From Ignavibacteria bacterium RIFOXYC2_FULL_35_21 (lineage in GTDB: Bacteria; Bacteroidota; Ignavibacteria; Kapaibacteriales; UBA2268), in NCBI GenBank assembly GCA_001804705.1, contig MHAY01000074.1, forward strand, positions 1 to 32,487: a stretch of 32,487 nucleotides of DNA, in the 5' to 3' direction. Position numbers and translations under genes: made by a program. How positions within the stretch are numbered: position 1 is the stretch's first letter; every line of letters starts with the position of its first letter. The notes below the pieces were generated by a model that was given only the letters and a program-made list of their open reading frames with translations, did no database searches and was not told the DNA's origin. Below are positions 6,523 to 32,276 of this stretch, piece after piece.

Positions 6523-6744
6523 TTATACCAGTATTTCCTTATTTTTAATGGAATAGTCTATTGGTAATAAATTATTCAGGTTCAAAACTTCCATAGCACC
6601 TAATATTTCAATTCCAACTAATTTATCATCCTTGCCAATATCCAAAACAATATGGTCATTGATTCTTTGATTGACAACTTCCTGAAAAGTATCATCGAAT
6701 CTCAAATAAAGCAAATCATATTTATCATCATACTCTATTTTCAT
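6523..6744 (-). CDS. DUF2283-family small protein (possible antitoxin)
   Basis: A 73-residue protein with the DUF2283 pattern: MKIEYDDKYDLLYLRFDD at the start, IVLDIGKDDKLVGIEILGA in the middle and a short charged tail. The family has no settled biochemical function. It follows the DUF4258 gene with a gap of three bases, so the two are almost certainly co-translated. By its size, order and partner it resembles the second gene of a toxin-antitoxin-like pair; that role is inference. No catalytic motif or membrane segment is visible. Confidence 0.85.
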   Translation of the reverse strand: MKIEYDDKYDLLYLRFDDTFQEVVNQRINDHIVLDIGKDDKLVGIEILGAMEVLNLNNLLPIDYSIKNKEILV

Positions 6745-6747
6745 ATT

Positions 6748-7008
6748 CTATTCCCATTCTCCATAAAATACATAGACAGTTATGGTAACGATATTATCAT
6801 CTTCTTTAGTGTAAATTACTTCGATTCTTTTTTGTTTATAAAAATTATTATTCCATTGTTTGTTATATTCATAAATCTTTACTTTTGCTAATCTATTGAA
6901 TCTCGCTGTTATTTCTAAACCATTATTTATAACATCAAAAATTTCAGATTCACTTGCACCTCTCTCAGATGCTCTTTTGAGTGTATGAGGTTCAATGATG
7001 ATTTTCAT
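6748..7008 (-). CDS. DUF4258-family small protein (possible toxin)
   Basis: An 86-residue protein with the DUF4258 layout: MKIIIEPHTLKRASERGASESEIFDVINNG at the N-terminus (His plus Arg-x-x-x-Arg-Gly), a central basic strand region with KVKIYEYNKQWNN, and a C-terminal beta-strand IEVIYTKEDDNIVTITVYVF. The overall alpha-beta fold and basic surface recall RelE/HigB-like and BrnT-like small toxins, but no active site is proven. It is the first gene of a two-gene unit with DUF2283 and starts 20 bases past the stop of the large ChaN-peptidase gene on the same strand, so read-through expression is possible. Confidence 0.82.
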   Translation of the reverse strand: MKIIIEPHTLKRASERGASESEIFDVINNGLEITARFNRLAKVKIYEYNKQWNNNFYKQKRIEVIYTKEDDNIVTITVYVFYGEWE

Positions 7009-10013: not shown

Positions 10014-10189
10014 ATTTACTCCAATTGTACAAATAAGTTCAGCAATTTAATCAAAAGGTGATAAAAGGTAAAAAGTTTACTTATATGTTAAATTCAAATA
10101 AAAGGAGTTTAATTCCATAGTATTAATATTTTTTCTATTATATTTGATATTGAAAAGTAATAGTATGACTAACATATTAAGTGAAAATC

Positions 10190-11308
10190 ATGAAGATTTT
10201 AGTATTAAAATCTATTATTTGCATTTTAACCATTTTAATATTTCCATTTATTAATAGTTCAAATGTCAAACTTTACGCAGTGAATCCACTTATCGCTGAC
10301 CACAACTCTGTATCTGAATTTGAAAATATTCCCGACAGCCTGTTACCTTTGGCAATACCAATAAGGTTAATGTTCCAGCATGCTTCTGTCGGGGGAACTG
10401 TAAATGACGGACTTGACTGTGTACAAGGTTCAAGAGAAAATCCTAAAGAATGTGATGAATTTCCGGACTATAAATTTGACAGGAGAAACTGGGAATTTCA
10501 ACCAAGAGGCAATTCGGGTTGGTATGGTAAAATCAATGATTTCGTTGAAGGTGTTGATTCCCAAATTGACAAATTCGATATATTTTCTTTTAAATACTGT
10601 TATCTTGACGGGCTTGATGGATTACAGGAACCTTGCGGTTCTCCATTCAATATAACAAAAACCATGCAAGCCTGGAATACACTGAAAGACAGTATGGAAA
10701 CACTCGAAAATAGGTATCCCAATAAAAAGTTTGTATGGTGGACAATTCCATTAACTCAGATTGGGATGTACTGTACTGATACCCTGAATACATTAATAAG
10801 AAATTATGTCAGAGAAAATGGGAAAATTTTATTTGATATAGCAGATATTGAAGCTTATGATACGATTAATATTCATCAGACAAATCCCAATGGTTGGGAA
10901 CTTGCTTTCAAATCCTATTGTGGTGAGCAACAACCCGGAGCACAGGCTTGCCATCCGAACTGGCTTGGTAAATTAAGACTGGCAAAGGCATTTTGGTGGC
11001 TCATGACAAAAATCGCAGATACAAGCATCACAGATGTTATAGAAACAAATTCAGGTTTTTCAAATAATTTTTTTAATGTTCAAATACAAGATAATTCTTT
11101 GATTATTCATTTGAAGAATGAGACTAATGGTTTTGTGAATGTTTCACTTTACAACATGATGGGAAGGTTAATTGTTAGTAGGATAGAGAGTCATACTGCT
11201 AATGGTAAAATTGAAATAAATACAAATAATTTTACCTTTGGATTATATTTTCTAACTGTCTCAAATGGAGAAAGTGTTGTAACCGAAAAAATCATCATTG
11301 ATGAATGA
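10190..11308 (+). CDS. Secreted SGNH-hydrolase-like protein with T9SS sorting domain
   Basis: A signal peptide occupies the first about 25 residues (MKILVLKSIICILTILIFPF). The catalytic-looking region has MFQHASVGGTVNDGL, with Ser66 in a HASVG block that could be the nucleophile, and a late ACHPNWLGKLRLAKAFWWL block with His255, as in SGNH/GDSL-type folds. Seven cysteines lie in the exported part, which suggests disulfides. The last about 75 residues (LIIHLKNETNGFVNVSLYNM through EKIIIDE) form a type A Por sorting domain, so the protein is predicted to be exported by type IX secretion. A GTG three codons upstream (10181) is an alternative start; the ATG at 10190 gives the cleaner signal peptide. 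The hydrolase assignment rests on motif order only and the substrate is unknown. It is divergent from the ChaN-peptidase gene. Confidence 0.75.
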   Translation: MKILVLKSIICILTILIFPFINSSNVKLYAVNPLIADHNSVSEFENIPDSLLPLAIPIRLMFQHASVGGTVNDGLDCVQGSRENPKECDEFPDYKFDRRNWEFQPRGNSGWYGKINDFVEGVDSQIDKFDIFSFKYCYLDGLDGLQEPCGSPFNITKTMQAWNTLKDSMETLENRYPNKKFVWWTIPLTQIGMYCTDTLNTLIRNYVRENGKILFDIADIEAYDTINIHQTNPNGWELAFKSYCGEQQPGAQACHPNWLGKLRLAKAFWWLMTKIADTSITDVIETNSGFSNNFFNVQIQDNSLIIHLKNETNGFVNVSLYNMMGRLIVSRIESHTANGKIEINTNNFTFGLYFLTVSNGESVVTEKIIIDE

Positions 11309-12457: not shown

Positions 12458-12706
12458 CTATTGAAAGATTGAAATTTGTCCTTTGTTTTTTTTCTTAGTC
12501 TTAATCCCCACTTTATTTTTTCTAATATCCTGGACTTCAAATCTTATGCTTTTTGCATAGGCTCTAATTGTCTGCATGTTCTTTCTTAACTTGACACCGG
12601 CTGATTTATTCCCTTTTTTGTAAAAGTTTATGAAATTCGTTTCAAAACTTTTTACCATTTGGAGTAATTCCTGATAGCGGTTTAATTCGATTTCTGACTT
12701 TTTCAT
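12458..12706 (-). CDS. Histone H1-like (Hc1-type) DNA-binding protein
   Basis: An 82-residue, strongly basic helical protein. The pattern RYQELLQMVKSFETNFINFY, then KKGNKSAGVKLRKNMQTIRAYAKSIR and EVQDIRK, matches the short Hc1/histone-H1-like proteins widespread in Bacteroidota, where the KGNxxAGxxxRKxMQ block is the hallmark. Lys-rich ends (KNKVGIKTKKKNKG) fit nucleic acid binding. It probably helps to compact the nucleoid. It stands alone between the asparaginase-family gene and the subtilase gene, with its own AT-rich upstream region. Confidence 0.82.
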   Translation of the reverse strand: MKKSEIELNRYQELLQMVKSFETNFINFYKKGNKSAGVKLRKNMQTIRAYAKSIRFEVQDIRKNKVGIKTKKKNKGQISIFQ

Positions 12707-24962: not shown

Positions 24963-25118
24963 TATTGTATCTGCATATTAATTGTAAAATTTTTTTCTTT
25001 TTATTACGATTGAATTTATTTACTAAACTCTTAAATTATGAAAAAATTAACGAAAATTCAATATCAAATATACTTTATTGAAAAAATACTTGATATTTTA
25101 AGGCAAAATCCAACATTA

Positions 25119-25152
25119 TTGGGAAAGATTAATTATAAAATTGTTATTTTTG
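25119..25152 (+). promoter_or_regulatory. Bacteroidota-type promoter of the methyltransferase pair
   Basis: A TATTTTTG box (25145-25152) fits the TAnnTTTG -7 consensus of Bacteroidota primary sigma promoters. A TTG (25119-25121) lies 23 bases upstream, at the long end of the accepted spacing. The -7 box is about 35 bases before the methyltransferase start. Confidence 0.45.
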
Positions 25153-25186
25153 CATCTCATTTAATTAAGGACTACACTTATAATTG

Positions 25187-26170
25187 ATGAATATGCATAA
25201 ATGCAGAATTTGCGGGAATTTTGATAATAATTTTTCTTTTGAAGACGAGGAAAAAATGTTCGGTACAAGAGAGAAATTTCTCTATTTCGAATGTTCTGCC
25301 TGTCATTGTATTCAGATATGTGAAATTCCCTATGAATTATCTGAATTTTACCCTGAAGGGTATTTTTCTTTAAATTTACCTTCTCCAAATATTTTTAAAA
25401 AATATATTAAAAGAAAATGCTTCCAACATTCTGCAGGTAATCATAACTTGCTTGGGAAATTTATTAGCTCAAAAAAAGGCAATGCTTCTTTTAATGTTTG
25501 GTTAAAGCATTTGAGAATAAATTTTAATTCATCCATTTTGGATGCAGGAAGCGGATAGGGATTAAGGCTCTATGAATTAGAGCTAGCCGTTTTTAGGAAT
25601 TTAACGGGTGTTGACCCAAATATTGAATGTGATTCAATTATTGGAAAAAATATTAAGATTTATAAAAATTATCTTAGTGAAATTGAAGGTTGTTTTGATT
25701 TAATTATGATGCATTATTCTTTTGAACATACGCCAAATCCAAAGGATATTATGCAGGATTCTTACAGACTATTAAACGATTATGGAACATTGTTAATTCG
25801 AATACCGGTAACAGGTTCTTATGTTTGGGAGAAATATGGCAAGGAATGGGTCCAATTAGATGCACCGAGGCATTTATTTATTCATTCTCAAAAAAGTATG
25901 GAATTACTTGCTGAACAAACGGGTTTCCAAATTGAAAAAGTTATTTATGAATCAACTGATTTTCAATTTTGGGGAAGTATTTTATACAGCAATAACATTC
26001 CACTTACTGCAACAAAGTTGTTTTCATCAGACCCTATGCGGGATTTCAGGCATCTGATTTCCAAAGAGGAAATGAAATATTTTGCAGAACAATCTGAGAA
26101 ATTGAATAATGAGAATAGGGGATACCAGGCAAGTTTTTATTTGAAAAAAATGATTGTGTATGTCAGATAG
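25187..26170 (+). pseudogene. SAM-dependent methyltransferase interrupted by one in-frame amber stop
   Basis: A single frame of 327 sense-length codons would encode a class I methyltransferase, but TAG at 25556-25558 stops it. The N-terminus holds a zinc-ribbon-like pair of CxxC motifs (CRIC, CSAC), as in methyltransferases acting on sugars or secondary metabolites. The SAM-binding motif I reads ILDAGSG-stop-GLRLYELEL, so the stop replaces one residue inside the nucleotide-binding loop. The same frame runs on unbroken to 26170 with VDPNIE (motif II-like), FDLIMMHYSFEHTPNPKDIM (motif IV), LLNDYGTLLIRIPV and a usual C-terminus. No other lesion is seen, so the damage is recent or is a base-call error; TAT, TGG, CAG or AAG at this codon would restore a normal loop. 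The downstream methyltransferase starts inside its 3' end. Alternative starts: TTG 25184 or ATG 25193. Confidence 0.85.
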
Positions 26171-26987
26171 TCAAATAAAAAATATTGAATATGATGTAAA
26201 GGAATTGAAAGAGTTTCCTGAGCATGATATTACAAATCGAATTGAACTATCATATAACTGGCTTCCTGCTGGAATAGATAATTTACTTGACGGGGGTTGT
26301 TCTTACGGCTATGGTACAAGGTTTATCAGGGCAAAAAGCAAAAATGTTTTTGGGATTGATTTGAATCCTAAGCATATCGAAATTGCAGAGAAACGTTACA
26401 AAGATATACAATTCAAGTGTTGCAGTTTAGAGAATACAGAATTTGAATCTCAATTTTTCGATGCCATAGTGATTAATGATGTCCTCGAACATACTCACGA
26501 TAAAATTCAAACTCTGAATGAGATGAACAGAATATTGAAACCGGGAGGTACAATCATTATTTCAACACCTCACAAAGGTTTGTTCACTTTTCTTGACCCA
26601 TATAATTATGGGTATTATCTCAGGAAGTGCTTTCCATGGCTGTACAAAGGGTTGTATAAATTTATCAGATTAATCAAAGATGGAAAAATCCCAAAAGAAT
26701 TTAATTCCGAGCATCAGGAAAAACATTTTCATTATTCTCTGAAAGACTATGTGAAAATGCTTAACCAATCCGGATTCTCAGGACATTTTACAATTGAAAA
26801 AGTTTTTCGTTCAGGATTGTTTATTGAAGTATTCACTATGAACCTGGAAAGCATATTTAATATTATTCTACCAATGCGGGTAGTAAGAATTTTATTAAAA
26901 CCATTCTATTGGCTTTCACAAATTGACTACTGGATACCTTACGGTGTTTTTGCTTATAATATTGCTGTAAGAGCGAAAAAGAAATAA
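26160..26987 (+). CDS. Class I SAM-dependent methyltransferase
   Basis: A 275-residue enzyme that transfers a methyl group from S-adenosylmethionine to an unknown acceptor. Motif I is LLDGGCSYGYGTRFI (about 40-54), an acidic residue follows in VFGIDLNPKHIEIAEKRY, and motif IV/post-I is FDAIVINDVLEHTHDKIQTL with the following RILKPGGTIIISTPH typical of Methyltransf_11 proteins. The C-terminal third (YYLRKCFPWLYKGLYKF and ILPMRVVRILLKPFYWL) is hydrophobic and could lie near the membrane, as in lipid or polysaccharide methyltransferases. The ATG at 26160 overlaps the last 11 bases of the amber-broken methyltransferase, so the two form one transcription unit; its product may therefore be the only functional one here. 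Confidence 0.9.
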   Translation: MSDSQIKNIEYDVKELKEFPEHDITNRIELSYNWLPAGIDNLLDGGCSYGYGTRFIRAKSKNVFGIDLNPKHIEIAEKRYKDIQFKCCSLENTEFESQFFDAIVINDVLEHTHDKIQTLNEMNRILKPGGTIIISTPHKGLFTFLDPYNYGYYLRKCFPWLYKGLYKFIRLIKDGKIPKEFNSEHQEKHFHYSLKDYVKMLNQSGFSGHFTIEKVFRSGLFIEVFTMNLESIFNIILPMRVVRILLKPFYWLSQIDYWIPYGVFAYNIAVRAKKK

Positions 26988-31535: not shown

Positions 31536-32276
31536 TTATCTATTCAAACTCCTGTGCAAAGTGGAAGTGTTGATTACTTCAATCATCTCTCTTGTAGCTC
31601 TTTCGATGCCTACATGAATTGCCCTGCTGATAATAGAATGTCCAATGCTGAATTCACCTATTTCAGGAATCAGGCAGAGAGGTTTGATATTCAGATAATT
31701 TATTCCATGTCCTGCGGCAATTTTTAATCTTGTTTCATTAGCGAAGAAAGATGCAATTTTAATTTTTTCCAATTCATCGTTGAATAATTCACCTTTAGCA
31801 TTTGCATAATTACCTGTGTGTAATTCAACCATATCGGCACCTGCGAGTAATGATGCTTCGATTTGTTTTTTATCAGGCTCGACAAAAAAGCTGACTTCGA
31901 TTCCATTGCCGTGCATTCTCTCGACAAGCGATTCGAACTTATCAGGATTACCTGCGACATCTAATCCACCTTCAGTTGTAAGTTCCATTCTGCCTTCGGG
32001 TACGATTGTAACCAGGTCAGGCTTTAAATTCAGAGCAATATTAATTATTTCTTCATGAGCCGCCATTTCCAAATCGAGTTTTGATTGAACCACCTCACGA
32101 AGAATTTTTACATCTCTGTCATTAATATGCCTGCGGTCTTCACGCAGGTGGCATACAATACCGCTTGCACCTGCTAATTCGGCTAATATAGCAGTGGCGA
32201 CCGGGTCAGGTTCTTTACCACCCCGTGCTTCTCTTATAGTAGCTACATGGTCAATATTTACGTTTAATGTTTTCAT
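31536..32276 (-). CDS. pdxJ: Pyridoxine 5'-phosphate synthase
   Basis: A 246-residue TIM-barrel enzyme that condenses 1-deoxy-D-xylulose 5-phosphate with 3-amino-2-oxopropyl phosphate to form pyridoxine 5'-phosphate, in the DXP-dependent vitamin B6 pathway. Family hallmarks are intact: LNVNIDHVATIREARGG at the start, CHLREDRRHINDRDV, LEMAAHEE, VTIVPEGRMELTTEGGLDV, VSFFVEPD, VELHTGNYA, KIAAGHGINYLN and FSIGHSIISRAI. Length agrees with E. coli PdxJ (243). It is the first gene of a probable pdxJ-asnB unit, with a TAATTTTG box 30 bases upstream. The end has a short extra tail (STLHRSLNR). Confidence 0.96.
   Translation of the reverse strand: MKTLNVNIDHVATIREARGGKEPDPVATAILAELAGASGIVCHLREDRRHINDRDVKILREVVQSKLDLEMAAHEEIINIALNLKPDLVTIVPEGRMELTTEGGLDVAGNPDKFESLVERMHGNGIEVSFFVEPDKKQIEASLLAGADMVELHTGNYANAKGELFNDELEKIKIASFFANETRLKIAAGHGINYLNIKPLCLIPEIGEFSIGHSIISRAIHVGIERATREMIEVINTSTLHRSLNR

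Follow-up and report, generated by a model that had tools for sequence, protein, structure and literature searches.

We found that a methyltransferase gene, here called MT1, is interrupted by a single in-frame amber codon within its SAM-binding motif I. The reading that we favor, with a probability of about 60%, is a recent and real nonsense mutation that would make this copy a null allele of a surface-glycan-type methyltransferase. The window, the whole stretch of DNA analyzed (32,487 nucleotides), is the entire contig C74 of the genome under study (G000), a draft assembly of 4,153,626 bases (4.15 Mb) in 105 contigs, and it was compared with three congeners (G001, G002, and G003), giving four genomes with one genome per species. 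Among the explanations considered, a null allele is the most likely, an error in the consensus base comes second, and one state of an on/off switch is possible. The features discussed are collected in Table 1.

Table 1 Features of the MT1 locus in the window, with the basis of each assignment.
Feature	Position	Strand	Basis or detail
Promoter-like element TATTTTTG, Bacteroidota TAnnTTTG type	25145..25152	+	42 nt before the start codon
MT1, interrupted gene for a four-cysteine ribbon and class I methyltransferase	25187..26170	+	translation, Pfam, family alignment
Expected product of the interrupted MT1, 123 residues	25187..25558	+	cysteine ribbon and first SAM-fold strand
In-frame amber codon in motif I	25556..25558	+	TAG here; CAG in G001, G002, G003
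Remainder of the MT1 methyltransferase domain, still open	25559..26167	+	Methyltransf_23, E 2.3e-15 alone
Altered MT1 3' end, 5 nt fewer than G001/G003, last codons shifted	26150..26170	+	congener alignment
MT2, intact class I methyltransferase, ATG 26160	26160..26987	+	Methyltransf_11, E 7.8e-21

Translation of MT1 gives 328 positions, the 328th being the terminal stop, with one internal stop (n = 1); as the first-pass annotation had described, the frame is open on both sides of this TAG. The open reading frames of at least 80 aa listed within the MT1 stretch in its frame are 25184-25558 and 25706-26170. The stop sits within LDAGSG-stop-G, the SAM-binding loop that follows the first strand of the fold, at a position that had been called variable. 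Across the wider family Q, Y, S, A, T, K, N, E, and D are indeed found there, although the three congeners all have Q. Past the stop, the frame does not offer an ATG, GTG, or TTG until 25706, which lies beyond motif I, so re-initiation cannot restore the SAM site. At the other end of the gene, translation could start at an ATG later than 25187, since codon 1 of the G001 copy is ATA and its codon 3 is ATG. If the stop is real and obeyed, translation would end just past the first strand of the SAM fold and no MT1 methyltransferase would be made. The earlier statement that no other lesion is visible needs correction: relative to G001 and G003 the gene has lost 5 nt at its 3' end, and it carries the changes G135V and D313Y at positions where 22 of 23 and 23 of 23 of the other members of the family, respectively, share the same residue.

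We examined the protein family and predicted fold of the interrupted product. Read through the stop, MT1 matches Methyltransf_23 (PF13489) over residues 114-251 (E 4.3e-19, 69.3 bits), and the G001 protein scores 77.4 bits against the same family; both pass the gathering cut-off of 27. The glycine loop of motif I, which a class I methyltransferase product carries unbroken, is broken in G000 and has a sense codon in G001-G003. Four cysteines (C4, C7, C34, and C37 in the numbering of the first row) are conserved without exception in the family alignment (24 of 24 rows). The first-pass annotation had described a complete Zn-ribbon plus class I methyltransferase; the methyltransferase is borne out by Pfam, and the ribbon stands as a putative one on the four invariant cysteines, with no Pfam zinc family listed for it in the scan. 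The dTDP-sugar C-3'-methyltransferases TcaB9, KijD1, and MtmC have an N-terminal zinc site ahead of the methyltransferase domain, and MT1 likewise has a four-cysteine ribbon, a putative metal site, before a Rossmann methyltransferase. Neither Methyltransf_13 (PF08421) nor Methyltransf_14 (PF08484), which we take to be the domains of TcaB9-type NDP-sugar C-methyltransferases, came up at E <= 1 when the read-through protein and that of G001 were scanned, and because these domains were not found we do not claim membership of MT1 in that family.

A sequence search with MT1 against solved structures gave 0 matches at E <= 0.01. Five AF2 models ranged in pLDDT from 75.0 to 44.8. In the model built for the G001 protein from a four-row alignment (mean pLDDT 75; numbering begins 2 residues later than in the MT1 of the window), the stop residue is predicted to fall between strand 114-118 and helix 124-132, so the truncated product would consist of the cysteine ribbon and the first fold strand only. 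When this model was compared with known structures using Foldseek, MtmC, KijD1, and TcaB9 ranked 1, 8, and 37 (E about 1e-9 to 1e-8) among 1020 matches at E <= 0.001, many of them other class I methyltransferases. The three sugar methyltransferases are about 400 residues long versus 321 for the modeled protein, and their resemblance to the model comes with 11-16% identity, TMq of 0.45-0.54, and rmsd of 6-14 Angstrom.

MT1 occupies the same position in all four genomes of the genus, flanked on one side by a Castor/Pollux-like channel gene and on the other by a second methyltransferase gene, MT2. The copies of G001 and G002 are single open frames, 80% and 70% identical to the G000 copy. The codon comparison with sister genomes suggested by the first-pass annotation returned CAG (glutamine) at the stop position in 3 of 3 sister species, so one C-to-T transition explains the TAG. 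The G003 copy (G003:C125:21486-22384) contains a different lesion, a 76-nt frameshifting deletion downstream of its CAG codon whose edges share GAA and which is likewise known from one draft assembly. This suggests that the same gene was broken by a separate lesion in G003 and that it can be lost in the genus. Along the syntenic locus, 43 of 63 possible gene-by-congener pairs had a match and two of these were flagged, namely MT1 in G003 and a gene that runs off the compared stretch, leaving MT1 of G003 as the only gene found broken among the 43 pairs tested.

Beyond the genus, a search of the family at E <= 1e-30 found MT1 in 10 of 54 genomes (its own included), with broken copies in two of the ten (G000 and G003). 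In an evenly drawn sample of 395 genomes of the phylum, with at most five candidates scored per genome, MT1 is present in 27 genomes as 29 copies, two of which are broken: that of G000 and a second copy in G381. The latter (G381:C3; L167 3150-4156) is split where an A run shifts the frame, which could be slippage or a homopolymer error, and shares its contig with a whole MT1 copy. Two further candidates were rejected. An apparent TAA inside the G023 copy was taken as the gene's own end, the frame being open to the terminal stop, and three TAG codons in G058 belonged to a weak match extending upstream of an ORF that is itself intact.

We also asked whether the cell reads TAG as a stop. The first-pass annotation had listed suppression among its options, by which an amino acid inserted at UAG would yield the full MT1 enzyme, and the frame downstream of UAG is indeed open and selected. 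However, scoring 150 of 302 first-look candidates in this 97.75% complete genome gave 47 tRNAs over the family cut-off, all typed by ARAGORN and together serving all 20 amino acids, and none of the 47 has the CTA anticodon of a CUA suppressor tRNA. Release factor 1 (RF1) is present and open, and PylS gave 0 matches over the cut-off and two weak ones below it. TAG is an ordinary terminator here: in a 432-kb sample it closes 18 of 170 open stretches of at least 300 codons, counted as open frames and not as proven genes, and it ends 3 of the 20 other genes inspected in the window. Since tRNAs, RF1, PylS, and stop usage are all against it, and the sister species use CAG, amber recoding was rejected; the TAG in MT1 should be read as a stop, and a full-length enzyme made by readthrough is very improbable.

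Using codon models (GY94-type, F3x4, four taxa, with the tree ((G000,G001),G002,G003) assumed), we estimated the selection acting on MT1; synonymous sites are heavily diverged, so all omega values are rough. Omega is 0.078 overall, 0.091 on the G000 branch versus 0.075 elsewhere (2dL 0.25), and 0.069 on the G003 branch. The profile for the G000 branch spans about 0.05 to 0.19, and an omega of 1 is rejected (2dL about 14.8). In the part after the stop omega is 0.067 on the G000 branch versus 0.060 elsewhere (2dL 0.04), and in the part before it 0.154 versus 0.092 (2dL 0.75). Branch models of MT1, its two parts, and five control genes gave no significant relaxation of selection on the G000 branch in MT1; the control gene DUF5686 is more relaxed there than MT1 (its omega being 0.095 on this branch versus 0.036 elsewhere, 2dL 4.65). 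Purifying selection along the G000 branch indicates that MT1 kept its function through most of the G000 lineage, and that the stop is either late or false.

An established pseudogene would be expected to show relaxed selection and several lesions; MT1 has one stop, the 5-nt end loss, and the two changes at conserved sites, with an omega on the G000 branch close to that elsewhere. The end loss, G135V, and D313Y are weak signs of early decay, and to judge from omega on the G000 branch the decay of MT1 has hardly begun. An excess of radical substitutions in the G000 copy was tried as a further sign of decay and dropped, because other genes on the contig lean likewise (mean BLOSUM62 of G000-unique changes -0.33 in MT1, -0.20 in MT2, and -0.25 in the gene at 31536). 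The first-pass description of MT1 as a very young pseudogene agrees with the purifying selection found along the lineage both before and after the stop, but it competes with the reading that the stop is a base error.

According to that reading, the TAG is a consensus error or the base of a minority strain in a draft, probably metagenome-assembled contig, and MT1 is intact in the organism. A single substitution suffices for it, the part of MT1 past the stop looks selected, G000 is a draft of many contigs, and the public record matching the G001 contig carries the label cov_1.96, which makes consensus errors plausible in such data. We scanned 432,487 of the 4,153,626 bases (10.4%) for in-frame stops, with score thresholds of our own choosing. 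In this sample 419 stops have at least 40 open codons on both sides, 27 of which are coding-like on both sides. A 100-codon filter, applied by eye to the printed list of these coding-like stops, left nine flanked by 100 or more open codons in both directions. Eight of the nine resemble gene junctions in having an ATG no more than 3 codons away, and the stop at 25556 is the only one of them that does not. Together with the open frames in G001 and G002 and the CAG codons of the three congeners, this makes the split frame more than a chance pattern. No second coding-like frame in the list is split in this way, which argues that errors are not common, although a sample of 432 kb still allows a consensus error rate that we estimate to be of the order of 1e-4. 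The 5-nt deletion at the 3' end adds a second difference in the same copy, though it may be an error too. We consider a wrong or minority base somewhat unlikely, and infer that the base at 25556-25558 is real.

Taking the nonsense mutation as real, we examined its possible effect on MT2. The first-pass annotation had noted an 11-base overlap between the two genes, and MT2, from its ATG at 26160, does overlap the end of MT1 through the terminal TAG (26168-26170). The overlap results from the 5-nt loss at the MT1 3' end and is present in G000 only; the junction is a 6-nt gap in G001 and G003, and a 4-nt ATGA overlap in G002. A TAnnTTTG element, presumably the Bacteroidota promoter consensus and a candidate promoter here, lies at -41 or -42 before MT1 in 4 of 4 genus genomes, so MT1 and MT2 are probably co-transcribed as one transcript, and polarity of the MT1 stop on MT2 is possible. 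The sequence upstream of MT1 (25047-25186) is conserved in the genus, including the TAnnTTTG element and a GACTAC segment.

Outside the genus, MT1 and MT2 are unlinked in the 54 family genomes (E <= 1e-30): MT1 occurs alone in five genomes and MT2 alone in four, and in the fragmented draft of G010 the two genes lie on separate contigs. The proposal that the stop lowers MT2 translation through lost coupling is therefore retained as possible polarity, and is weakened by an overlap confined to G000 and by the absence of linkage outside the genus. MT2, which was searched for in the family, is present in 9 of 54 genomes (E <= 1e-30) with a stop or split in 0 of 9, and its omega of 0.034 on the G000 branch (free-ratio fit) reflects strong purifying selection. 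Polarity is compatible with this selection because the stop is recent, and we infer that MT2 is still made.

Three other features of the window were recorded. On the minus strand, 6523-7008 holds two adjacent small genes, DUF4258 (86 aa, ending in TAG) and DUF2283 (73 aa), which by their size and families would form a toxin-antitoxin-like pair; the TAG that separates them marks a normal boundary between genes. For a 375-aa ORF at 10181-11308 no match was obtained in the syntenic stretches of the G001 and G003 genomes, in which its two neighbors lie close together, and it looks like an accessory gene of G000. A histone H1-like Hc1 protein of 82 aa is encoded at 12458-12706 on the minus strand of this Bacteroidota genome.

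We surveyed the gene neighborhoods of MT1 relatives for indications of the role of the enzyme. The survey covered 23 loci (22 with a whole MT1 and one with a split copy) of relatives that are 35-47% identical, and 105 of the 109 neighboring proteins chosen were scanned. The commonest families are the glycosyltransferases PF00534 (in 12) and PF00535 (in 11), and the bacterial sugar transferase, polysaccharide-synthesis, and O-antigen-ligase families occur in 3 each; most of the 105 neighbors lie outside these glycan families, so this is a tendency only. Within the genus, MT1 adjoins the channel-like gene and an epimerase/aminotransferase pair. The glycosyltransferase-rich neighborhoods of the distant relatives make a surface-glycan methyltransferase the best reading, and the intact MT1 enzyme would most plausibly have methylated a surface polysaccharide or its sugar precursor. 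The stop would then create a null allele of such an enzyme, either fixed or segregating in the species, and to that extent the null-allele reading overlaps with that of a maintained on/off allele.

In the on/off alternative, which the first-pass annotation had also listed, MT1 would act across the genus as a serotype-like switch: this surface-glycan methyltransferase would be selected in the long term and repeatedly knocked out by independent, possibly revertible lesions. The different MT1 lesions in two of four congeners despite long-term purifying selection are consistent with this, as are the scarcity of flags among the 43 syntenic pairs, where MT1 in G003 is joined only by a gene truncated at the end of the compared stretch, and the A-run frameshift in the second copy of the distant relative G381. 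Against it, two lesions are few when one genome per species is compared, the glycan role is itself a prediction, and the probability that a second lesion would strike the same gene by chance is about 3% by length, a post hoc estimate. We regard a maintained switch as quite unlikely. If it were true, methylated and unmethylated surfaces would coexist, for instance under phage pressure.

The precedent for such a switch is wbeT/rfbT, the O-antigen methyltransferase of Vibrio cholerae O1, in which varied disrupting mutations change the serotype (Ogawa/Inaba), as described in two reports (PMC3727987, PMC5051702). In these descriptions the gene is inactivated by varied point mutations, indels, and insertions, yet intact copies of it survive, which makes it a possible model for MT1. 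The lesions of wbeT/rfbT described there occur in strains of one species, whereas those of MT1 occur in different species, and the two genes are likened by behavior, not by sequence. A claim of wbeT/rfbT-like behavior would need more than two lesions in four genomes. Our best reading is that MT1 was knocked out here and, separately, in the sister species G003, an event of an ordinary kind.

Bacterial genomes contain recent nonsense pseudogenes and null alleles in which a single stop lies in a selected frame and the orthologues of sister species are intact. By itself, one nonsense change found in a draft assembly means little, and compared with these ordinary pseudogenes MT1 is distinctive only in that its counterpart in a congener shows another lesion. 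A selected gene broken differently in sister species of an uncultured Bacteroidota genus is of some use as a lead.
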